Part shown: positions 36,959 to 59,987 of the stretch, piece after piece
Position numbering within the stretch: the stretch's first letter is position 1
Layout of the letters: every line of letters begins with the position of its first letter
Assembly (NCBI GenBank): GCA_947495135.1
Contig: CANLXN010000002.1
Location: 310,001 to 374,000, forward strand
DNA from: an uncultured Flavobacteriaceae bacterium
Lineage (GTDB): Bacteria; Bacteroidota; Bacteroidia; Flavobacteriales; Flavobacteriaceae
Direction: 5' to 3'
Length of the DNA stretch: 64,000 bases
Made by a program: the position numbers and the translations under genes
Notes under the pieces: generated by a model
What the model saw: only the letters and a program-made list of their open reading frames with translations
Told to the model about the DNA's origin: nothing
Databases searched by the model: none

Positions 36959-37786
36959 CTAAGAAGCCATCATCGCAGCTTTGATCTGTTTTACCACTTC
37001 AATGTGGTCTAATCCAAAATCTTTCCAAGCTAGTTCTAGTTCTTTCATGTCCACATGCTTCACGATAGTCCCATAATCCTGTAACTTTCCATCAATAGTT
37101 GGATAACCAATCACATAAATACTATCTGCCAGTTCTACCGCTAGCTCAATATCGTGTGTGGAATATATAATGGTATTAAATTCATGAGACGCTGTGATAA
37201 GATCGAATGCATTCTTTACGGCTTCAATATTACCTACATCCAGGCCAGAAAACGGTTCATCTAGAACCATATAATGTCCTGAACAAAATATCTGCTCGAT
37301 AATAGCCGTCCGTTGTCTTTGACCTCCAGAAAGCTCGTTGGGATATTGATCTTTTACACTTTCCAGTCCCCAATCTTTTAAATACTGCATGATCTGTTCA
37401 TGCTTTTGTTCTTTAGTCTCTTGGTTGTTGCGCAATGCAAACATTAGTGCTTGATAGACCGTTTTATTCCTGAAAAGCGTGTACTTCTGATTTACAAAAC
37501 CAATATCACCTTCTTTTACTTCCTTTGCATCGTTATCGAGACCAGTAGCCGTATTGGCAATTAACACCTTTCCAGAGGTTGGTTTCACCAAACCAGTTAA
37601 TGCTCTAAACAAAGTAGATTTACCACGACCAGAACGCCCTACTACGGCGATCACTTGCCCAGTAACCTTCCCTTCACGAAGTACATCCTTCTCCACAAAA
37701 TTAACGTCTTTGATGACCATTTTTGGACCATATGCGACACTGAGGTCTTCAACATATAGTAAAGTATTTTCTATAGTGTAGTTCAT
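36959..37786 (-). CDS. ABC transporter ATP-binding protein (NitT/TauT-like)
   Basis: A 275-residue ATPase, starting at the ATG at 37786 (MNYTIENTLLYVEDLSVAYG); the upstream extension overlaps the permease gene. Walker A is GRSGRGKST (the usual second Gly position shows variation), the signature is LSGGQRQRTAI, Walker B is YMVLDEPFSGLD, and the H-loop is STHD. It resembles ATPases of nitrate/sulfonate/taurine importers. It starts 4 bases after the permease stop and is the last gene of the AAA+/OmpA-SBP locus. Confidence 0.9.
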   Translation of the reverse strand: MNYTIENTLLYVEDLSVAYGPKMVIKDVNFVEKDVLREGKVTGQVIAVVGRSGRGKSTLFRALTGLVKPTSGKVLIANTATGLDNDAKEVKEGDIGFVNQKYTLFRNKTVYQALMFALRNNQETKEQKHEQIMQYLKDWGLESVKDQYPNELSGGQRQRTAIIEQIFCSGHYMVLDEPFSGLDVGNIEAVKNAFDLITASHEFNTIIYSTHDIELAVELADSIYVIGYPTIDGKLQDYGTIVKHVDMKELELAWKDFGLDHIEVVKQIKAAMMAS

Positions 37787-37790
37787 TGCC

Positions 37791-38561
37791 TTATATTTTT
37801 GAGTATCTAAAAAAGGTTTTTCGTAAGTAGTCCAATACAAAATCGATAAACAGACCTACACCAAGTATCACAATTTGAAGTGCAATAATCCGACCGTGAT
37901 TCATGAATTTATCCGAGTTCTTAATAAGGAATCCGAGTCCGCCAGCGGCCACAAGAATAGATTCAACCGTTACTAACATCATCCACACAATTGCAAGGTT
38001 CTGTCTAATCACTTCAATTACATGATCTATTCGTCCTTTTACTACTACCTCCCATAATACTTCCCATCGATTGCACTTTAAGGAGCGGGCGTGATCAAAT
38101 TCTTCTTGACTAATGGCAGCTACCATCCCCAGCAAAGAAGTAGTAAGATAGGTGCTCATAAAAACCACCAACACCCAAACCTGCATGGTTCTGGCATCAC
38201 TTATTATAATTGCTAAATAAAATGTTATTCCTGTTAGCGGCAAATACCTCAACTTACTAATAGCAGTGGTAATGGGCTTAACTACAGGTATGGTCGATAA
38301 ATAAGTTAGAATTAAAGAAATTACAACCGCAATAATAATCGCTTTGAAACAAAGTAACAAGGAGCTACCAATATGTACCACCAGTCCTTCATTATAAAGC
38401 TCTTTAAAACCCGTAAACACCTGCTGCGGCGATGGGAATAAATGTCGCTCTCCCATACTGGAGACAAACCAAATGACGACAACTGAAATAATCCAAAACA
38501 ACACTATTAGTAGCCTTGTGTTTTTGGTAAGCTTTTCGAAAGGTGTGAATAAATGTTTCAT
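37791..38561 (-). CDS. ABC transporter permease (NitT/TauT-like)
   Basis: A 256-residue inner-membrane protein with about six transmembrane helices and an EAA-like cytoplasmic loop (AAISQEEFDHARSLKCNRWEVLWEVVVKGRI). This is the binding-protein-dependent transport family seen in nitrate, sulfonate and taurine systems. Length is normal. It is separated from the upstream SBP-OmpA gene by 78 bases that contain a strong terminator-like hairpin. Confidence 0.88.
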   Translation of the reverse strand: MKHLFTPFEKLTKNTRLLIVLFWIISVVVIWFVSSMGERHLFPSPQQVFTGFKELYNEGLVVHIGSSLLLCFKAIIIAVVISLILTYLSTIPVVKPITTAISKLRYLPLTGITFYLAIIISDARTMQVWVLVVFMSTYLTTSLLGMVAAISQEEFDHARSLKCNRWEVLWEVVVKGRIDHVIEVIRQNLAIVWMMLVTVESILVAAGGLGFLIKNSDKFMNHGRIIALQIVILGVGLFIDFVLDYLRKTFFRYSKI

Positions 38562-38580
38562 AGTGTAATTTGGTTAGTCA

Positions 38581-38624
38581 TAAAAAATAAGGCTGTACTT
38601 ATATTAATTATAAGACAGCCTTAT
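38581..38624 (-). terminator. Terminator or attenuator hairpin between SBP-OmpA and the ABC permease
   Basis: TAAGGCTGT (38588-38596) pairs with ACAGCCTTA (38615-38623), with an inner CTTAT/ATAAG extension. On the minus strand the stem is followed by six T. It would stop or reduce transcription from the SBP-OmpA gene into the two ABC genes. Confidence 0.7.
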
Positions 38625-38639
38625 GTATTTCAATCCTTA

Positions 38640-40454
38640 TTACTTCAATAGAGTAATAACTACACGTCTGTTTTTGGCTCTACCAGACGGGGTAGAATTA
38701 GTATCAACCGGCTCATCTTCTCCTTTACCAATAACAGTTTGGAAACGAGACTGAGGAATTCCTCTTCCTCTAAGGAAATTCACTACCGCCTGTGCTCTAC
38801 GCTGAGACAGGTCGTAATTAGCTTGTGCAGGACCTTGATCGTCTGTGTGACCCTCAAGTTTCAACTTAGTATCTTCGGCCTGAATTAACAGGTTGTAAAT
38901 AGACTCCAAAGTACTTGCGGACGAACTAGAGATATTGGCACTTCCAGTATCGAAATTAATATTCCATTCACCAGATGCTAATACTTCGTTGGCGGTTTCG
39001 GTATAATTTGGTTTATAAGCAGAACCTGCATCAATATCATTTATATTCTTGATAAAGTAAAGGTTTACAGCTTCATCATAAGGAACAATTCGCTTAACAG
39101 ATTCATTAAAACCAAATGGATTTAGCTCGGCCAAATAAGAAGACACTTGGTTGTACACCGCTTTATATCGGTTAGTACCATCGGTAATCCCGTAATATTG
39201 CATAACATCTGCATAGTTGAATACTCTAGATCCTCCCATGTTGTATTCAACACCGTTCTTACTTCCCTTTTGTCCTTGGAACATATCGTACCAATATTGA
39301 GGTGATTCTAGTTCGTAGGTAGTTGCAACAGCTTCAGAAGCTCTTACTCTCCACTCGTCGTATTGCTTCATTTGGTTAGAAGCAGTCAAAGCAGACTTTA
39401 GAATATTACTTACAATATCCGCATGGTTTACAGACCATTCTTTAACTGCAATAACAGTGGTTGCCATTTGATTGTTGAATTCTTTGGTTGACACGATATC
39501 GGTAAACCCACTCAACTCATCAAAAACCATTTTATCTCCTGGAGTCCAAGTTGCACAACCATCGATTTTTTTATTGATGGTTTTACCAGTTAGTTTTCCA
39601 TTTTTCACTTCCTTCAAAGGAACGGTCCATCCTGCTTTCTGAGACTTGATCAATTCTTCAGCAGATTTGATGTAATCATCATCTTGAGAAGGGTAGAAAT
39701 TCACAGCTTCAGGATCGTAAGTAGTTACATCTGGATTTACTTTTAAACCATTCGCAAAGGCGTAATTTAATGCAGTTACCCAGTCTCCATCACCTAATAC
39801 AGTAGAGATAAGTGCTCCCTTCATACTCTTGGGATCTACTTTCCAGCTTGGCGGCCCAATCAATTTATCTTCACCATAACTAAGGCCTACAGCTCCTACT
39901 ACTTGCACATGGTACTTGTCTTTTCCAAACTTATCGTCCAATGCCTGTTGCATGGTACTAATATAGAATGGCGCACCATCACCCATCATCATGATAGCAA
40001 ATGCACTTTTATCTGAATCAGGAAACTCCTCTCCTCGATCGTACTCTTCTACAAATTTCATCTGCATGTTTCGCAGCTCCGAAAGCCAATCTTGTCGAAT
40101 AATTTCTAGATTTACTCCGTTTTGCTCCATTAAAGATCCTTTGGTAGTCTTAGGTCCTCCATTGGCGACAATAATTCCAGACTGAGCATTCCATGCATAA
40201 GCGGCAATGCGCACTAAAGGCTTATTCTTTACATCACTAGAGGTTCTAGTAGAAGGAAGCTCCATCTTCTCTGAAGTAATCACATTGTTTACTTCATTTT
40301 TATCGATATTTAACTCTTCCAACTGCTTAGCCTCTCCAACACGAAGTCCTGGCGCAAAATAATAAACCGCGCCCAAAATACCTCCTAGTAGTACCACTAC
40401 AATAAGTAATTCGGACAGTGTCGTTAATTTCTTGGTTCGTAAAATTTTTCCCAT
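38640..40454 (-). CDS. Membrane-tethered ABC substrate-binding domain fused to OmpA peptidoglycan-binding domain
   Basis: A 604-residue protein. An uncleaved-looking N-terminal helix (about residues 13-33) is followed by a periplasmic substrate-binding domain of the nitrate/taurine type (VRIAAYAWNAQSGIIVANGG, then TTVIAVKEWSVNHADIV). The last 108 residues or so form an OmpA-like domain (INFDTGSANI, LEGHTDDQGPAQANYDLSQRRAQAVVNFLRGRG, AKNRRVVI) that binds peptidoglycan. Annotation pipelines call related proteins phosphate ABC transporter substrate-binding/OmpA family protein. The build would link inner membrane to cell wall. It follows the coiled-coil genes by 22 bases. Confidence 0.88.
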   Translation of the reverse strand: MGKILRTKKLTTLSELLIVVVLLGGILGAVYYFAPGLRVGEAKQLEELNIDKNEVNNVITSEKMELPSTRTSSDVKNKPLVRIAAYAWNAQSGIIVANGGPKTTKGSLMEQNGVNLEIIRQDWLSELRNMQMKFVEEYDRGEEFPDSDKSAFAIMMMGDGAPFYISTMQQALDDKFGKDKYHVQVVGAVGLSYGEDKLIGPPSWKVDPKSMKGALISTVLGDGDWVTALNYAFANGLKVNPDVTTYDPEAVNFYPSQDDDYIKSAEELIKSQKAGWTVPLKEVKNGKLTGKTINKKIDGCATWTPGDKMVFDELSGFTDIVSTKEFNNQMATTVIAVKEWSVNHADIVSNILKSALTASNQMKQYDEWRVRASEAVATTYELESPQYWYDMFQGQKGSKNGVEYNMGGSRVFNYADVMQYYGITDGTNRYKAVYNQVSSYLAELNPFGFNESVKRIVPYDEAVNLYFIKNINDIDAGSAYKPNYTETANEVLASGEWNINFDTGSANISSSSASTLESIYNLLIQAEDTKLKLEGHTDDQGPAQANYDLSQRRAQAVVNFLRGRGIPQSRFQTVIGKGEDEPVDTNSTPSGRAKNRRVVITLLK

Positions 40455-40476
40455 TTTTAATTTTCTCTTTTAATTA

Positions 40477-41598
40477 TTAATCAAACATATTTCCAAATCC
40501 GCCACTTTCCTGTTTGTCTTCTGCTGAAAGCTTATAGTTTGGGTTGTTATACTTTTTGGCATCTGGAATATAATCCTTACCTGTTTTAATTTTGTCTGCC
40601 AATGTATCCAGTTGCGCATACAATTCGTCACTATCCACATCATATTTGGATGTTAGTGTATCAATATCAGACAGATTTTCTTGTGTTTTTGCAATATCCA
40701 TTGCGATTGTTTCGGTCACAACATCTAGCGCATATTCCAGCTCCCAGTCCTTGGTAAACAACATGGCAGATTTTGCTCCATCTGTCGCTGCTTTCGCAGT
40801 TTTCGCAAACTTATATTCCTTTTCCAACATGGTAATGGTTACATCAAAGTCGGATATTTTAATATCAATTGCAGTACCTGCTAGGGTTAACTTTCGATCT
40901 AATTTCCCCATCACACTGGCACGGCTTCCGTATTTCTGAATAAAGCTCTTACTCTGTTGTAATTGATGTGAAATACGTTGAGACTGAGAAAGTTTTTTAG
41001 CTAACTGACTGTGAAGCTCCACATACTCGTCGGTATCCTTTCCTGCATTTCCTTTTTCACCAACGATACGTTCCATTTCAGATTTAATTTTCTGAGCATG
41101 CTTTTGAAGTGCTACTACTTGATCCTGAAATTGCTTAGCCTCCTTTTCTGCCTTAAAGGCTTCCGCCTCCATATTGTTCTTCAACGCCTTAATTTTAGCT
41201 TTGGAATCTTTGAAAATTTTTCGATTTCTCAACATTTTCTGCTTTTGTTCCTGAAGTTCTCCAAAAGGATCGTGGCGAATTAGCGATTGATGAATTCCAC
41301 GGGTAATTCTTCGCAAACCTTTAAAAATGATTGGTAACATCATTACGAAAAATACCAGAAAAACGGCTACTCCAGCAAGGGCAATTACTTGACCTAAAGC
41401 TGTAAATAATGGTGGCAATACATAGATCCATGCAGCGTATCCTAAACCAGCAAACAAGGCGATTTTCAAGGCAGCATTTAACCCTTTTTCCCCATTTCTC
41501 CACTTATTCGGATTTAAGGAAATTTCTCCTTTCTCATCATCAAAGTGCTTGAGGATAGGTAAATCTAATACATGACTTTTTGATTCTTTAAGATCCAT
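40477..41598 (-). CDS. Membrane protein with long coiled coil, unknown family
   Basis: A 373-residue protein. Two transmembrane helices lie near residues 42-62 and 70-95, then a charged coiled coil (about 115-215) and further helical segments to the end, closing with GGFGNMFD. The cytoplasmic helical part has the look of PspA/IM30- or TelA-type stress proteins, but no sequence motif supports either assignment. It starts 7 bases after the upstream coiled-coil gene stop, so translation is probably coupled. Confidence 0.75.
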   Translation of the reverse strand: MDLKESKSHVLDLPILKHFDDEKGEISLNPNKWRNGEKGLNAALKIALFAGLGYAAWIYVLPPLFTALGQVIALAGVAVFLVFFVMMLPIIFKGLRRITRGIHQSLIRHDPFGELQEQKQKMLRNRKIFKDSKAKIKALKNNMEAEAFKAEKEAKQFQDQVVALQKHAQKIKSEMERIVGEKGNAGKDTDEYVELHSQLAKKLSQSQRISHQLQQSKSFIQKYGSRASVMGKLDRKLTLAGTAIDIKISDFDVTITMLEKEYKFAKTAKAATDGAKSAMLFTKDWELEYALDVVTETIAMDIAKTQENLSDIDTLTSKYDVDSDELYAQLDTLADKIKTGKDYIPDAKKYNNPNYKLSAEDKQESGGFGNMFD

Positions 41599-41605
41599 AA
41601 GTTAG

Positions 41606-42295
41606 TTATAGGTTATTTTTAATACCGTTTACAACGGTCATGATAGTTTCTAATATTTTAGCTCGCGCCATATCATTTGCAGCGATCTTTTGATCGATTT
41701 CAGATACATCATTCAGCAAACTCGAGTCTAAGGAAGCCAATTGATCTTTCTTCACACTTATCTGATTCTGAATTTCAATTAGTTGTTTTTCCAAAGCTAA
41801 GATCTCTGCACTCAAATTGGATTTTTCAGCTTTCTTCGCCGCCGAAATTTGGTCTTTCTTACTATTTCCCTGTTTTTGATACTGTTTATGAACCTTATCG
41901 ATTTCATTTACATAAAACTCACCCTGTGTCAATAGTTTAGCCTTAGACACACCAGAATCAACACTCTGCGCCATGGTTAATGCCATCTTATAAACACTTG
42001 CGTCGTTCGAACCTACAGCCTTGATAGCCTTAAAGAATTCGTAAAAATCGTAACCTGGTTGATTGAGAGATTCGAATCCAGATTCGTACATTTCAACAAC
42101 CGTAGCAAGCGTGCTGTTCGCTATGTCACTTGCTTTCACAGTAGACTGCGGGAATTTTGTCTCCGTGGGGTTCGTTTGTGGAAAAGAAGTAGTTGAAGTT
42201 TCTGATTTTGGAGCTGACTTTTCTACAGGTTGATCGTTATCTGCTCCTTCATCATTTATGAATAATCCTTTCCAATTAAACTTTTCTTTTGCCAT
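41606..42295 (-). CDS. Soluble coiled-coil protein, unknown family
   Basis: A 229-residue cytoplasmic protein. The first 50 residues are Ser/Thr/Pro-rich and probably disordered, the middle is helical (SDIANSTLATVVEMYESGFESL), and residues about 140-200 form a coiled coil (LSAEILALEKQLIEIQNQIS). I recognise no family. It heads the second part of the locus and may have its own promoter at 42345-42376. Confidence 0.75.
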   Translation of the reverse strand: MAKEKFNWKGLFINDEGADNDQPVEKSAPKSETSTTSFPQTNPTETKFPQSTVKASDIANSTLATVVEMYESGFESLNQPGYDFYEFFKAIKAVGSNDASVYKMALTMAQSVDSGVSKAKLLTQGEFYVNEIDKVHKQYQKQGNSKKDQISAAKKAEKSNLSAEILALEKQLIEIQNQISVKKDQLASLDSSLLNDVSEIDQKIAANDMARAKILETIMTVVNGIKNNL

Positions 42296-42344
42296 TTATT
42301 AAGTATTTGGTTGGTTTTGGCGCATACGCGCTCTATTAAAGGGC

Positions 42345-42376
42345 TAAATTTATATAAATTTTACCAGTTCATTCAA
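42345..42376 (-). promoter_or_regulatory. Possible internal promoter of the coiled-coil / SBP-OmpA genes
   Basis: On the minus strand TTG (42374-42376), 21 bp, TAAATTTA (42345-42352), one mismatch to TAnnTTTG. It sits 50 bases before the ATG at 42295 within a 160-base gap. Confidence 0.35.
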
Positions 42377-42455
42377 TTTTTTAAGTCTTTACTGAAGGGG
42401 AAAATACTGAATTGCCCCTTATTAGTCTCAAATTTTATATTTTGTTACGCCCATA

Positions 42456-42956
42456 TTAGCGCTTTAATCTGGCCCAAGCAATTCTCAAAATGATAAAAAG
42501 AACAACAAATACGGCTATAATATGTGTAAAACTACCTAAGAACAACACTCCAAAATAGGTGCGTTGGAGCACGAAAATAATTCCGAAACATATACCAATA
42601 ATAAGCATCAAACTAGACAGCTTATCAAAACCAGGGATTTTACTCATCGATACTTTCCTACTTAGAATAATTAAAACGGCTACCATTGTAATAATTGGAA
42701 CGAAATAGGAGATTACACTTACGTTCAATAGACTAGTTCTAATAATTAGCAATGAATACAAAGTGAGCAAAAGCGCTAATATGCCAGGTACAGTTACTCC
42801 AAAAACCACTACGCTCATCACGTATCGCAATTGTTTAAAATTACTCTCCTTCACTATTAAAGTTAGTAATATCGCCAATAGCAGAAGAGAAACATAATAC
42901 CCAAGAATTGCATACTCATGATTACTAAACCAATCTATTAAATTCTGTATTGTCAT
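42456..42956 (-). CDS. Small integral membrane protein, unknown
   Basis: A 166-residue hydrophobic protein with about five transmembrane helices: near residues 15-33, 43-68, 73-97, 110-130 and 138-160. I recognise no family. It lies between the AAA+ ATPase gene (47 bases upstream) and the coiled-coil genes, and belongs to the locus by position only. Confidence 0.7.
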   Translation of the reverse strand: MTIQNLIDWFSNHEYAILGYYVSLLLLAILLTLIVKESNFKQLRYVMSVVVFGVTVPGILALLLTLYSLLIIRTSLLNVSVISYFVPIITMVAVLIILSRKVSMSKIPGFDKLSSLMLIIGICFGIIFVLQRTYFGVLFLGSFTHIIAVFVVLFIILRIAWARLKR

Positions 42957-43002
42957 AATATATTGTTTGGAAAAGAGGTCATTTCTTAAAACCCTTTGTG
43001 TC

Positions 43003-44493
43003 TTATTCTTCTTCGTTAAACAAAATTATTTCCTTGACTGTTTTTAAAATTTCAGGAATATCTTCTTCGGTTAAAGTAATCAATAATTCTTCAGTGATCT
43101 TTTCATGCCCGACAATACGATTAGCTTGTCGTTCAATAATTTTCTCAAAAAGATTACGCATGGTTCTGGCATTCCCAAAACCTCGGTGGCGTTTTTCATG
43201 AACCGCATGAATTATTTCGCCCAACTTGTCTTCAGCATCTGGTGTTAATTTAAAATCTCCTTTAGCCGTATTCAACTTAAAGATCTTCATTAAATCATCA
43301 GCATTAAAATGATCAAACTCGAAATAGCGATTAAATCTAGATTGAAGTCCAGGATTGGACTGGATAAACCCTTCCATTTCATCTGGATATCCCGCAACTA
43401 CAACCACCAAATTGTCTCGATGATCCTCCATACGTTTTAGCAAGGTTTCAATGGCCTCACCACCAAAATCATTAAAGCCACCCGAACTAAGCGCATAGGC
43501 CTCATCGATAAATAAAACACCTCCCAAAGCAGCAGTTATAATCTCATCTGCCTTAATAGCTGTTTGCCCCACATAACCCGCTACCATTCCGGCCCGGTCT
43601 GTTTCTACCAAATGCCCTCTCTCTAAATAGCCCAAATGTTTGAAGATTCTACCCAACATTCTTGCTACGGTAGTTTTACCAGTACCTGGAGGCCCCATAA
43701 ATACCGCATGCAAGGTGTTTCTTGAAGTTTTTAGACCTTTCTCGTCTCGTAACTTCTGGACCTTTAAAAAATTGGTTAAATCTGCGACGCTTTTTTTAAT
43801 GTTGGGCATCCCCACCAACTCATTTAATTCTTTGAGGACAATTTCCAAGGTATCATTTTCGGGAACTTCGTTATACTTCCCTTTATTCACAATAATTTTT
43901 GGTTTATTGATTCGATCTGAAACTTCCTTTAGCATTTTCTCTTCTTCTTTCGAGATTTGAGTGTCTGCTCGAGCCACCAGCAAAGCCATTCTATTGAGGA
44001 AGGAAGCAAAGGATTGAAATTCGCCGCTGTTCGTTTTTTTCAAAACTGCCGTTGAAACAAATTCCGATTTCATTTCATCGATGGGTTGAAAAAATGAAGT
44101 TTCTCTAATAGTTCTTACATTCTTCTCAAACAAACTTGACTTTGTTAATTTATTGAGTCTACCAAGGTCATAATTCTCACTTAAATCCTTCCCTTGAAGT
44201 TTTTCGTAAAAGTAGATAAGTGTGAATTTGGCTTTAATAGGAATTCTACTCACCGCATCGTTAAGCGTAGCAAATTCATTAAACACCTTCACCAAATCTC
44301 GCATTAACAGATGTTCTGCCTTATAAGAAATTTTAGAGAAAGACTCATCGGTCATTGCTTTTACTCCACCAGTAAACGTTCTATCTGCATTGAGTGTTAT
44401 ACAACTTGCCCAAGCCTTGTTCCCCTCTTTTCTGAGGATCTCGATAAATTCTGGAGTGATAGGTAAAGGTTGATCCCCGGTAGTTTTAGTCAT
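43003..44493 (-). CDS. AAA+ ATPase, CbbX/SpoVK-like
   Basis: A 496-residue protein. The C-terminal half is a CbbX/CfxQ/SpoVK-type AAA+ module. It contains Walker A GPPGTGKT (267-274), the GYVGQ loop (306-310), Walker B VLFIDEAYAL (326-335), an SRF arginine-finger region (about 385-387), and a C-terminal helical lid (RGFGNARTMRNLFE). The first 200 residues are helical, with DTQISKEEEKMLKEV resembling a TerB-like segment. CbbX relatives remodel partner proteins such as Rubisco; here the likely targets are the coiled-coil proteins encoded next to it. It is the first gene of the seven-gene locus. Confidence 0.9.
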   Translation of the reverse strand: MTKTTGDQPLPITPEFIEILRKEGNKAWASCITLNADRTFTGGVKAMTDESFSKISYKAEHLLMRDLVKVFNEFATLNDAVSRIPIKAKFTLIYFYEKLQGKDLSENYDLGRLNKLTKSSLFEKNVRTIRETSFFQPIDEMKSEFVSTAVLKKTNSGEFQSFASFLNRMALLVARADTQISKEEEKMLKEVSDRINKPKIIVNKGKYNEVPENDTLEIVLKELNELVGMPNIKKSVADLTNFLKVQKLRDEKGLKTSRNTLHAVFMGPPGTGKTTVARMLGRIFKHLGYLERGHLVETDRAGMVAGYVGQTAIKADEIITAALGGVLFIDEAYALSSGGFNDFGGEAIETLLKRMEDHRDNLVVVVAGYPDEMEGFIQSNPGLQSRFNRYFEFDHFNADDLMKIFKLNTAKGDFKLTPDAEDKLGEIIHAVHEKRHRGFGNARTMRNLFEKIIERQANRIVGHEKITEELLITLTEEDIPEILKTVKEIILFNEEE

Positions 44494-44622: not shown

Positions 44623-46527
44623 CTATAAAAAGAAGTCCCAAACAAATCCAAACCTTATCGCCGCATCTCTGTACGGATAACCAGGAGCCGAGAATTGGCT
44701 ATTGGTCGAGCTAAATAATTGATTAACGTGCTCGTATTTTAAATAGATTCTGGTTTGTCTAATTTTTACGTTAAAGAAAACATCTACCAGAGGAAATGCC
44801 CCTAATTCCATATTGTTCTGGACATAAAACTCTCCCAATACCGGATCGTAGGCATTGGCATTGTAGGAAGTGAAATATTTAAACCCAATTCCAGTTTGTA
44901 CAAACATGGCCTTTTTAAACCACACATCTTCATAGTAAAGCGACTGTCTTGTAATTATTTCAGGAACATTAAACACCTCTTCTCCACTAAGCACTTGTTG
45001 GTACATAATTGTATTCATAAGTGCAAATCGGCGCCAACGGAATTCGCGTTCCGCTTTAATTTTCAGATAATCGACCCGCCCATCAAATTGTTGAGGAGTT
45101 GGAGTAATGCCATCTTCCTCGATCGTAAAAAAGGCGTAATCATCTATCCCAGTATAACTTACTGAAGCATCTAACAGTTTTTTGGAGGCAATCTCAAATT
45201 TAAGCTCTTGTGTTTTCACATTATTAAAAGCAGTTTGCCAGTTATAATTAACATAATCGCTCTGGTTCAAAAGAAAATTGAAATTGGGAGCGGCACTGTG
45301 CACTTTTATAGAAGCTTCAACCAAATTTTCAGGGTCCAAAGCATATGAGGCACTTCCGAAGAGGTAATTTCCATCAAAATCCCCAGAAACATTTACGGCC
45401 GCTTTTCCGAAGAGATTAAAACCACGATAATTTTTCTCATACGAAGCCCCTGCCTCCACAATGGTTCCTAACAAACGATTTGTAATTCTACCTTCATCCA
45501 AATCTACCACAGAATTATAACCGTAATTATAATCGGTATAACCAATATGGGCCGATATTTTCCCTAAAATTGAATTGTCTAAAGTTGCACTCATTTGGGC
45601 TTGGAAATCTTGGATGGTCGTTTTCTTACCCAATGCAGAAGCAAGGTACGCATCCCCAAAACCTTCAAAATCATCGTCTTGATTAAATTGATAAAATTTT
45701 TCTTCGTAACTCAAGGTGTTGCTTAGTGTAAGCAAGGTATAATCTAAACTGTCCTTTTTACTTATAAGATCGTATTCCTGATTAACAAAAAACCTCCGAC
45801 CCTCCAGCCTATTATCTGCATTTTCAAAATTAACATCCAATCTTCCTCGATCTGCAAATTCTGAATCTCCCGCTTCAAACAACTCGATCGAATTCTCCGT
45901 AAGACCACCATTTTGATTATTCAGTATGTCCTGCACCGTCATATGAGCGCGTAGTCTGTATCTTTTATTTTTTGTGTTATATGAAGAAGAGAACCGAAAA
46001 TTCCCAGTACTGGTGAGTCGGTTTTGATATTGTCCCAAAGAACGTAATCCTTTATAAGCGACCGAAAAATTGAATCGCTCACTTGTATTTATGGTAAAAA
46101 AGGCATCCAATTGCTGTCCTTGGTTAAATGCGGTTTTAAAATAAATCTCTGTTAGTGGAGTGGGTACATTATAATAGTAAATATCCTCAACGCCCATAAA
46201 ATTAAAGTGCTGCGCTTGAGCAACAAACTTCGGTTTTAGATGAAAATCGTTGAAACTATATGCGAGAGAATTATAGGTTTGTCCCACGTTAGCAAAAGGA
46301 AGTAGCTCAAAATTATCACGTCTTAAATAGTTGTATTTATAATCTTTAGCAACGGTTAGACTTGTATCTACTGCAGTGGTATCACCTGCAATGGATATCA
46401 TCTTGTACAGCTCAATTGGAGGTTTATCTTTTTTGGGTTTATTAGGGCTAAACTTGGTGGGTTTGGTTTGGGAAAACACGGTTGCACACGCGCAAAATAA
46501 TAAAAGTAGCAAAAGTGTCTTCTTCAT
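44623..46527 (-). CDS. Putative Bacteroidota outer-membrane porin
   Basis: A protein of about 634 residues, start chosen at the ATG at 46527 (MKKTLLLLLLFCACATVFSQ, a clear signal peptide). After a Lys-rich linker the protein is a long beta-rich barrel sequence ending AIRFGFVWDFFL with a terminal aromatic, as expected of an outer-membrane barrel. It fits the putative porin family (PF14121) common in Bacteroidota. The transported solute is unknown. It is divergent from rnhB. Confidence 0.8.
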   Translation of the reverse strand: MKKTLLLLLLFCACATVFSQTKPTKFSPNKPKKDKPPIELYKMISIAGDTTAVDTSLTVAKDYKYNYLRRDNFELLPFANVGQTYNSLAYSFNDFHLKPKFVAQAQHFNFMGVEDIYYYNVPTPLTEIYFKTAFNQGQQLDAFFTINTSERFNFSVAYKGLRSLGQYQNRLTSTGNFRFSSSYNTKNKRYRLRAHMTVQDILNNQNGGLTENSIELFEAGDSEFADRGRLDVNFENADNRLEGRRFFVNQEYDLISKKDSLDYTLLTLSNTLSYEEKFYQFNQDDDFEGFGDAYLASALGKKTTIQDFQAQMSATLDNSILGKISAHIGYTDYNYGYNSVVDLDEGRITNRLLGTIVEAGASYEKNYRGFNLFGKAAVNVSGDFDGNYLFGSASYALDPENLVEASIKVHSAAPNFNFLLNQSDYVNYNWQTAFNNVKTQELKFEIASKKLLDASVSYTGIDDYAFFTIEEDGITPTPQQFDGRVDYLKIKAEREFRWRRFALMNTIMYQQVLSGEEVFNVPEIITRQSLYYEDVWFKKAMFVQTGIGFKYFTSYNANAYDPVLGEFYVQNNMELGAFPLVDVFFNVKIRQTRIYLKYEHVNQLFSSTNSQFSAPGYPYRDAAIRFGFVWDFFL

Positions 46528-46664
46528 TCTTTGGTATCTTAAAAAGCAAAGGTAAATTATTCCTTTTAATTGCCTCACTCCTTTAACGATTCCTAAAGTT
46601 CTTTATTTCTTCTGAAATTTTCACACACGTAGAACTGTGATTTAGAATTTGTATTTTGCATGGC

Positions 46665-58157: not shown

Positions 58158-59987
58158 ATGAAAGCACCTTTATATATATTATTTATTGCGTTCGTTCTTT
58201 GTTCTTCCTGCGGAAATAACAACAAAAAAGAACCAGTTGAACAGGAACAACACACGAAAGCGACTTCCAACTCGACTCTTAACGAAAATGACAATGAGGA
58301 AGATAAAAACGATCTTGGTTCATTTCTGAATGATGCCTTAGAAGATGGATGGGAGATAGATGGTGAGAGCATGGAACTTCTAGATGCCCTAAACGATCTC
58401 TCCTCATCTGGAAACCTTCAGATAGATGAAGAAGCCTTGCGAGTTATGCTAGAAAAAAGTGGAAAGACCTTGGAAGATTTTCAGTCTCATCTGGAAAAAA
58501 CAGGTAATACAGCCAATAGTTCGGATGGAGATTCATCTCTTTCCGATCTAGAAAACATGCTGGGAGACTTACAAAATGGCAATCTAGATCAGTTTAAAAA
58601 AGCGCTCGAAGCCACCGGTGTAGATATTTCCGAAGGAGCTATGAAAAACCTTCTTAAGCAAAACAGTGGGTCGGGAAAACGTCTTACCGCAAATAATAAG
58701 GAAGACAATGCAAGAGCTGTTTTAGACAAAATTTACCCGGAGGCAGATCAAAATTTGATCGAAGAAGAAATCATGAAACCCAGAACTGGAATGAGGTATG
58801 AGCGTCTCGAAATGTTAGAAAAATTGGGGAATAGCAACTCAAAAGAAGAAGCAAATGCAATCATGGCTTCCTTTTTAACCGTTTCTGAAGAAGAGCTCTT
58901 ACTTCTGCAAACCCTACCGCCAGAAAAACAAGCCGTCTGGTCCGAAAAAGACGCCATAAAAATGGACAAGTACATTATGCCCCAAGCAGTGGAAGCTTAT
59001 TTAAAAAGTGGTAAGGCAAGTCCTAAATTTATTGATCTTGTAGAACTAAGTACCACAAGACGCCAAAAGGCTATTTCTCGGTTTATTAGAGAGAGTAAAA
59101 AGGCAAGAGAGAAATTTTTTAAGCAAAACCCAAGTTGGTTCACGGAAGGATCGACACAAGGCAATACCTATAAAGATCAAAGAAACAAATACATCTTCTT
59201 ACCACTGGGTGAATTATCTTTTGCAGACAAGGTGATATCGCATGAACTAGGAAGTCCAGAAGGAGATTATAGCGAGGGAGCTATTGGAGCCCCAAATATG
59301 GATATGCGTGATTACACGGACAAGGATCCTAGGGTGTGTAATCTAGGAATTAAAGGAGTCCTCACCTTAGAATTTACAGATAATGCAATCACCAACGTAG
59401 TAGGACCAGATTTGTATGTTTTTGAATTAGGAGCCGTTGAGCCAACAAACTTAGAAATCTCTAAGGATGGAAAAGAGTGGGTCAATGTTGGAAAAATTGA
59501 AGGAGGAACTGCGCTTGTAGATATCGAAGAATTTGTTGAACAGAACGAGACATTTCGGTATATCCGCCTAACAGATTTAGATTCGTCGAGTGCCGTGCCA
59601 GGCGCAGATGTAGATGCAGTTGCTGCTATTGGTGGAGCGGTTAGGTTGAATATTGATAGTTCGGTACTCTTTGATACAGGAAAACACAATTTGAAAGAAT
59701 CTGCAGCTTCAGAGTTGGATAAACTTGTATCGAAAATAGAAAAATTTGAAAAGGGAATGATCGTTGTTGAAGGGCATACCGACAATGATGGTAACCCTAA
59801 GAGCAACCAAGCGCTTTCACTGAAGCGCGCCAAAGAAGTAAGTAGTTATTTGCAAGCCCACTTATCAAACGAATATAAATTTCAACAAAAAGGACTAGGA
59901 GAGAATCAACCTATTGCTCCAAATGACAGCGCCGAGAACAAGCAAAAAAACAGAAGAGTAGAAATTTTAGTATTACCTTTAAAATAA
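58158..59987 (+). CDS. Lipoprotein with F5/8-type-C-like and OmpA peptidoglycan-binding domains
   Basis: A 609-residue lipoprotein with lipobox LCSSC. An acidic helical region (about 30-280) is followed by a discoidin/F5-8 type C-like beta domain (about 350-490, VLTLEFTDNAITNVVGPDLYVFELGA, EWVNVGKI, RYIRLTD). The C-terminus is an OmpA-like domain (VLFDTGKHNLKESAASELDKL, VEGHTDNDGNPKSNQALSLKRAKEV, KQKNRRVEIL). It should sit at the outer membrane and grip peptidoglycan, a possible anchor for the S74 protein encoded upstream. Starts 9 bases after the previous gene. Confidence 0.82.
   Translation: MKAPLYILFIAFVLCSSCGNNNKKEPVEQEQHTKATSNSTLNENDNEEDKNDLGSFLNDALEDGWEIDGESMELLDALNDLSSSGNLQIDEEALRVMLEKSGKTLEDFQSHLEKTGNTANSSDGDSSLSDLENMLGDLQNGNLDQFKKALEATGVDISEGAMKNLLKQNSGSGKRLTANNKEDNARAVLDKIYPEADQNLIEEEIMKPRTGMRYERLEMLEKLGNSNSKEEANAIMASFLTVSEEELLLLQTLPPEKQAVWSEKDAIKMDKYIMPQAVEAYLKSGKASPKFIDLVELSTTRRQKAISRFIRESKKAREKFFKQNPSWFTEGSTQGNTYKDQRNKYIFLPLGELSFADKVISHELGSPEGDYSEGAIGAPNMDMRDYTDKDPRVCNLGIKGVLTLEFTDNAITNVVGPDLYVFELGAVEPTNLEISKDGKEWVNVGKIEGGTALVDIEEFVEQNETFRYIRLTDLDSSSAVPGADVDAVAAIGGAVRLNIDSSVLFDTGKHNLKESAASELDKLVSKIEKFEKGMIVVEGHTDNDGNPKSNQALSLKRAKEVSSYLQAHLSNEYKFQQKGLGENQPIAPNDSAENKQKNRRVEILVLPLK

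Follow-up and report, generated by a model that had tools for sequence, protein, structure and literature searches.

A conserved operon of ABC transporter, OmpA-fused binding protein and coiled-coil genes shared by Bacteroidota and very large phages

The window analysed here is a stretch of 64,000 nucleotides from an uncultured Flavobacteriaceae bacterium (GenBank assembly GCA_947495135.1, contig CANLXN010000002.1, positions 310,001 to 374,000). Seven co-directional open reading frames (ORFs), named g1-g7, lie on its minus strand at 36959-44493 (Table 1). Five of them encode an ATP-binding cassette (ABC) ATPase, an ABC permease, a substrate-binding protein (SBP) fused to a transmembrane (TM) helix and an OmpA domain, a membrane-bound coiled-coil protein and a soluble coiled-coil protein. 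These five core genes form a single conserved unit that is under purifying selection in both chromosomes and large phages. Across Bacteroidota and phages, the coiled-coil genes stay next to the SBP-OmpA and ABC genes, which bears out the initial annotation of the window in grouping the genes as a unit and not as chance neighbours.

Table 1. Genes of the operon in the window, and the gene standing in the place of g3 in three variant loci
Feature	Position	Strand	Basis
g1, ABC transporter ATPase	36959..37786	-	Pfam ABC_tran E 7e-27; ORF open to 37840
g2, ABC permease, taurine/nitrate type	37791..38561	-	Sub-cut-off BPD_transp_1 and SaoP/TauC matches; conserved between g3 and g1
g3, N-terminal TM helix, NMT1/TauA-like substrate-binding domain and C-terminal OmpA domain	38640..40454	-	OmpA E 1e-20; AlphaFold2 fold
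g4, 2-TM hairpin and cytoplasmic coiled coil, no known family	40477..41598	-	Library searches, hairpin flank charges
g5, soluble, low-complexity N-terminus and C-terminal coiled coil, no known family	41606..42295	-	Alignment
g6, small polytopic membrane protein (5-TM per the initial annotation), optional	42456..42956	-	18 loci, all with g7
g7, AAA+ ATPase of the SpoVK/CbbX/EccA class with its own N-terminal region, optional	43003..44493	-	AAA and AAA_lid_6 (Pfam)
TM protein in the place of g3 beside g5-g4	L252 7330-8397; L254 8348-9433; L253 6729-7775		

The census of the operon comprises 157 loci, 84 chromosomal (the window included) and 73 viral. All five core genes are detected in 68/84 chromosomal and 57/73 viral loci, and the order g5-g4-g3-g2-g1 is kept in 125/125 of these five-gene loci. 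That the order is the same in very large phages as in the chromosomes of Bacteroidota argues for a real cell-envelope assembly. The ratio of nonsynonymous to synonymous substitution rates (dN/dS) lies between 0.01 and 0.25 over the five core genes in seven viral pairs that differ, an eighth pair (L146/L134) being identical and uninformative, and between 0.02 and 0.19 in two chromosomal pairs. The chromosomal set is the best 80 of 297 confirmed stretches, ranked by likeness to the window, out of 342 that matched the pattern in the GTDB collection. The viral set is the best 80 of 84 confirmed IMG/VR stretches (104 matched) and holds 75 loci. Three viral loci (L166, L169 and L177) stand outside the 73-locus census, no g3 ORF having been called in them at first; on re-examination they hold g3-g2-g1. 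Stop-codon recoding was suspected in these three because the first ORF census missed g3, and was rejected: under table 11 their genes are uninterrupted.

Linkage between g3 and g4 extends beyond the census. Profile searches of 395 Bacteroidia genomes find g3 in 15 and g4 in 26, the two samples being taken as the same 395 genomes from their identical listings. Every g3-positive genome carries g4 (15/15), against 11/380 g3-negative genomes (Fisher p 1.5e-20, a value that is too small because the genomes are related). Of the 11 g4-positive genomes without a g3 call, G791 has a distant full operon (L258) missed by the g3 profile, and the match in G068 is marginal. A search for g4 among viral contigs finds 36, of which 36/36 carry g3; 34 are among the IMG/VR stretches recovered with g3, and the other two were checked. 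Within the census, g4 is called in 70/84 chromosomal loci, and contig ends account for the missing call in some. For seven of the 14 loci without a g4 call the rest of the genome was searched, and a g4 homologue lies elsewhere in 7/7; g5 adjoins the distant copy in 4/5 genomes read. We infer that these separated copies partner g3.

The AAA+ gene g7 and the small membrane protein gene g6 are optional additions. g7 is present in 55/84 chromosomal and 0/73 viral loci, upstream of the core in some and downstream in others, and g6 occurs in 18 loci, each also carrying g7. The seven-gene locus of the initial annotation is thus reduced to a widespread five-gene core with optional company. Its link between the AAA+ gene and the transporter survives in part: full-length g7 (>800 bits) is found in 4/80 genomes, all g3-positive and of the family of the window, three further g3-positive genomes among those 80 are without it, and the matches in eight other genomes are AAA-domain matches. 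The link does not reach the viral loci, where a search of 26 records for g7 returns weak AAA matches alone, in eight records (best E 4.5e-9). The closest solved relatives of g7 are CbbX (E 2e-69) and EccA1 (E 8e-60). Its NCBIfam scores stay under the equivalog cut-offs of SpoVK (296.3 vs 422.95), CbbX (229.5 vs 459.25) and EccA (227.5 vs 466.65). A TerB-like N-terminus is matched in one of four members (E 0.014). The absence of the AAA+ gene from 73/73 viral and 29/84 chromosomal loci, and of the 5-TM gene outside its 18 loci, is what an ordinary nitrate/taurine importer lying by chance next to unrelated coiled-coil and AAA+ genes would predict. With the invariant order, the co-occurrence of g3 and g4 and the two alternative positions of g7, chance adjacency is barely credible, and for the five-gene core it is refuted.

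The next gene upstream of g7 in the window encodes a Porin_10 putative porin (44623-46578, E 1.5e-154), beyond which lies an ORF that appears RNase HII-like by eye. Promoter and terminator scans of the window return counts below their shuffle means (20 vs 23.8 and 3 vs 5.3, respectively).

The ABC genes of the operon are of importer type. The ATPase gene g1 probably starts near 37786, 18 codons inside the listed ORF (36959-37840), since most homologues align from g1 residue 19-21. Its Walker A, signature, Walker B and H-loop motifs are kept in 80, 79, 80 and 80 of 80 chromosomal homologues and in 62, 64, 64 and 59 of 65 viral homologues. The permease g2 scores 23.8 bits against Pfam BPD_transp_1 (cut-off 26.4), and 58.3 and 51.9 bits against the NCBIfam models SaoP and TauC, both far under their equivalog cut-offs. 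A simple EAA-loop pattern is found in about half of the g2 proteins (42/83 and 36/68) and was not used. Pfam confirms the ABC ATPase and OmpA domains that the initial annotation had named, together with AAA and AAA_lid_6 in g7.

The fold of g3 identifies its binding domain. An AlphaFold2 model (mean predicted local distance difference test score (pLDDT) 87.1, predicted template modelling score (pTM) 0.84) comprises a single N-terminal helix followed by an SBP domain and an OmpA domain. In comparisons with PDB structures, the SBP part aligns with TauA (Z 25.2, root-mean-square deviation (rmsd) 3.8, 291 residues), CmpA (Z 24.2, rmsd 3.8, 335 residues) and SsuA (Z 22.9, rmsd 3.2, 285 residues), and the OmpA part with TagL (Z 18.9, rmsd 1.2, 112 residues). 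The SBP domain of the window matches no Pfam family and is recognised by fold; the earlier placement of the transporter in the nitrate/taurine group is nonetheless right, given the TauA/CmpA/SsuA fold. Profiles of g3 and g4 find no meaningful match among PDB sequences, and in a BFVD fold search with g3 the matches at E < 0.001 are confined to the OmpA domain.

Conserved residues of OmpA-domain motifs bind peptidoglycan. In g3 proteins of at least 520 amino acids (aa), GxTDxxG is kept in 84/84 chromosomal and 71/71 viral members and LSxxRA in 83/84 and 71/71; with NRR added, the motifs are present in 154-155 of 155 full-length g3. The N-terminal flank of the g3 TM helix is more positive than the C-terminal flank in 133/164 homologues, which places the SBP domain in the periplasm. 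Across 17 sequences, whose identity to the window falls as low as 27%, 31 positions of the SBP domain are invariant, which suggests that it keeps a conserved ligand or interface. The initial annotation had favoured sensing or maintenance of membrane-to-wall spacing or envelope stress, with the transporter as a signalling or lipid/solute-moving element; the strong conservation of the ATPase, OmpA and SBP parts fits real transport at least as well. A second OmpA-domain ORF (~610 aa) is present outside the operon, on the plus strand at window 59667-59954.

The coiled-coil proteins are the less familiar half of the operon. No convincing family is found for g4, g5 or g6 in Pfam or NCBIfam, and PHROGs and PADLOC searches of the locus proteins return shared domains only, with no convincing g4/g5 family. 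Positive flanks on both sides of the g4 hairpin in 122/152 homologues place its coiled coil in the cytoplasm. A relation of g4 and g5 to TelA was tried and rejected: there is no Pfam TelA match up to E 1, and a shallow hhalign profile comparison with six TelA proteins gives probabilities of 0.4% (g5) and 0.1% (g4). XpaC gives no match to g4 in the general Pfam scan, and no profile comparison was made for it. Zorya was likewise rejected, as ZorB matches are confined to the OmpA domain and the sole ZorA match is the g4 coiled coil (E 0.066). Among anti-phage systems more broadly (PADLOC, 2023 library), the matches are generic ABC, AAA and ZorB/OmpA-domain hits and weak coiled-coil hits. The g4 and g5 families are undescribed as far as the literature searched goes.

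The SBP part of the window matches 7/296 genomes of the phylum, and the wider profile 15/395 Bacteroidia. Among annotated phages, 1/50,697 records matches, the uncultured LR756500 (462 kb); two divergent queries find no record beyond it, and two queries of plasmids match 0/72,556 records. Two records bear the titles Limnohabitans (L075) and Thermoanaerobaculia (L079), and misbinning of Bacteroidota is the probable explanation of both; the phylum sample for L075 gave Bacteroidota genomes already in the set.

Viral carriers reach 578 kb. Among 26 large viral records, terminase is matched in 16/26, the gp23 capsid protein in 19/26, either in 21/26 and neither in 5/26, and 19/26 have a hallmark match over a curated cut-off. 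In 14 cellular control genomes, gp23 is matched in 0/14 and the terminase family in 6/14. By these matches the carriers are mostly phages with a T4-type capsid; for the five records without a hallmark, viral status rests on the IMG/VR label. Several viral contigs are near-copies of one another (e.g. L123/L147, L022/L155). A small gene encoding a putative secreted protein lies between g3 and g2 in 20/73 viral and 0/84 chromosomal loci, and nearby in another position in five more viral loci. Its product has a signal-peptide-like start and barrel-like alternation, both by eye, with no convincing Pfam match and one chance-level PDB match. The motif TATAAATA, which we take to be the T4-type late promoter, is not enriched upstream of phage g5 (2/67 vs 46/968 other ORFs). 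Some loci hold other ORFs recognised by eye: a nicotinamide phosphoribosyltransferase-like ORF directly upstream of g5 on a 416-kb IMG/VR contig without hallmark (L160, 6080-7255), and a DNA ligase-like ORF between g3 and g2 in L107 (5534-6934), with ORFs of equal size at the same position in L104-L106.

Phage and chromosomal members are interleaved on trees. An unrooted tree requires at least four changes between virus and chromosome, or three if well-supported branches alone are trusted; a tree rooted on three distant NMT1-OmpA proteins places phage and chromosomal members in both main lobes. Both trees were built with FastTree and carry long-branch warnings. For the rooted tree, nine more chromosomal genes from the class sample were added, and thinning of rows more than 85% alike left 84; near relatives are over-sampled in the trees because chromosomal hits were kept by likeness to the window. 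Given this mixed placement, the most likely history is more than one transfer of the set between phages and Bacteroidota. Gene exchange also points to Bacteroidota hosts for some of the carrier phages. Within Flavobacterium, L044 and others, nearly 30 loci in all, adjoin genes that by eye resemble F1 ATPase alpha/gamma subunits and dUTPase, and this stable neighbourhood suggests vertical inheritance of the locus in that genus.

Distant operons extend the family and separate its parts. L250 and L258 keep the core order with a bona fide NMT1-OmpA protein. The homologues in L250, L258 and L209 match Pfam NMT1 over the cut-off, and distant operons match SsuA/taurine models below theirs. ABC genes are missing from L252 and L253, where g5-g4 are followed by a TM protein of 348-355 aa and then by a g6 homologue; L254 has the same arrangement but lacks g6. 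L251 (7332-9061) holds g4-g6 alone, so that the link between the 5-TM protein and g4 also exists outside the operon. The g6 homologues of L251-L253 have 4-5 TM segments in a hydropathy scan. For the TM protein of L252, the searches give one weak match, exopolyphosphatase-like (E 0.0072), and nothing in PDB; by eye, the TM proteins of L252, L253 and L254 may contain exopolyphosphatase/actin-like motifs. The g4/g5 pair thus appears to be a module usable with other membrane parts.

Such loci, in which g4 exists with g5, g6 or both away from any ABC part (L251-L254), would also be expected if the assembly were a mechanical sensor of wall spacing. By an FtsEX-like logic, the ABC part would couple ATP use to the state of the wall through g3, without transport, and the signal would pass to g4/g5 and g7. 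The inner-membrane helix and peptidoglycan-binding-type domain of g3 suit such a sensor. We consider it unlikely, as the ABC genes are of importer type, the SBP domain keeps its 31 invariant positions over 17 sequences, and the secreted gene of the phages is better explained by transport.

Our preferred reading, to which we give about an even chance, is that the operon encodes an ABC importer anchored to the wall, with a coiled-coil scaffold beneath the membrane to organise it. The products of g2 and g1 would form an ATP-driven inner-membrane importer with g3 as its binding protein, the N-terminal helix of g3 sitting in the inner membrane and its OmpA domain on peptidoglycan. So tethered, g3 would capture a small solute close to the permease rather than diffusing. 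With its coiled coil in the cytoplasm, g4 would join soluble g5 in a scaffold by which the transporter is clustered or positioned. Some Bacteroidota might use the CbbX-like g7 to remodel this scaffold, with g6 as an additional membrane component. The small secreted barrel-like protein, present in about a quarter of phage loci, may supply an outer-membrane step. For phages, the set would sustain uptake and keep up the envelope while a long infection lasts; more broadly, they may use the operon for uptake, for envelope upkeep or for excluding rivals.

Several observations weigh against an importer of this kind. The g4 structure model is poor (pLDDT 64.4, pTM 0.39). The g4 copies of split genomes are distant and need not partner the g3 in question; in G323, one of two g4 copies belongs to a distant operon, L209, that has a g3 itself. 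In the g4-only genomes other than G791 and G068, no g3 is seen beside g4. L252-L254, where g4/g5 stand beside a quite different TM protein with no ABC genes, indicate that the pair can exist without import. Finally, the 45 commonest neighbour clusters, of which representatives of eleven were read, include no prominent catabolic gene; the Porin_10 gene of the window is not among these clusters. Without an evident catabolic neighbour, a simple nutrient importer is less likely, and the rival explanations stay in play.

The main rival is a barrier against competitors, comparable to Ter/TelA sets, in which g4/g5 would form a sub-membrane structure and the SBP-ABC part would sense or block phage DNA or toxic compounds, serving defence in chromosomes and superinfection exclusion in phages. 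The missing catabolic neighbours agree with this, as do more than one move between phage and chromosome on the trees and a distribution that is patchy in bacteria (7/296 and 15/395 genomes) and includes large phages. Precedent is offered by two papers: Ter components of jumbo phages are argued to be a possible means of resisting superinfection (Iyer 2021, PMC7824862), and phage proteins with a predicted membrane location may influence how other phages infect (Al-Shayeb 2020, PMC7162821). By the same shallow profile comparison and the Pfam TelA model, however, g4/g5 are unrelated to TelA; the PADLOC matches are generic ABC, AAA and OmpA domains, and the nearly 30 Flavobacterium loci sit stably by F1 ATPase- and dUTPase-like genes with no obvious defence island. 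A barrier, which rests on analogy, is accordingly doubtful.

A bolder proposal is possible and is offered tentatively. The operon might represent an undescribed class of envelope machine that Bacteroidota and huge T4-like phages have exchanged. In it, a wall-anchored, ATP-driven SBP and a dedicated coiled-coil scaffold would remodel or seal the envelope of the infected cell. The g4/g5 scaffold would be a module whose periplasmic parts are interchangeable, paired mostly with SBP-OmpA and ABC genes and elsewhere with the unrelated TM protein and g6.

No description of the operon was found in the literature among the matches listed, as judged by titles and the openings of abstracts. A term search of PMC12619734, PMC12363816, PMC13282480 and PMC13037316 finds neither an ABC transporter nor OmpA mentioned. 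The importer part belongs to a known type, of which it is a variant; carriage of the whole set by huge phages is undescribed as far as the literature was searched. A whole ABC import operon is unexpected in a phage, and it brings two protein families unnamed by the libraries searched. If the importer reading is true, a phage that installs its own wall-anchored transporter would change the understanding of huge-phage infection. Copies in the culturable species Cellulophaga baltica, Flavobacterium saccharophilum and Aquimarina muelleri make the function testable now.

Four kinds of known system come closest to the operon. Like Ter/TelA sets, which combine sub-membrane and membrane parts in bacteria and jumbo phages (PMC7824862), the operon joins both kinds of component in both kinds of carrier, but g4/g5 are without detectable TelA homology and none of the seven window genes is TerC or TerD by Pfam. 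With CbbX, SpoVK and EccA, g7 shares AAA and AAA_lid_6; it differs in its own N-terminal region, its sub-equivalog scores and its company in a transporter operon. With MotB, Pal and OmpA anchors, g3 shares the OmpA motifs, and its N-terminal TM helix and periplasmic OmpA domain are arranged as in MotB. Unlike MotB, g3 has a whole solute-binding domain inserted and no conserved acidic residue in its TM helix (by eye, from the alignment), and the operon has no MotA-like partner. With the TauABC, SsuABC, NrtABC and CmpABC importers, the operon shares its SBP fold, its ATPase type and, by matches below the cut-offs, its permease type. In contrast to these NMT1/TauA importers, whose SBP is free or simply lipid-anchored, the operon fuses its SBP to a TM helix and an OmpA domain, has g4 in 15/15 g3-positive genomes and is carried by huge phages.

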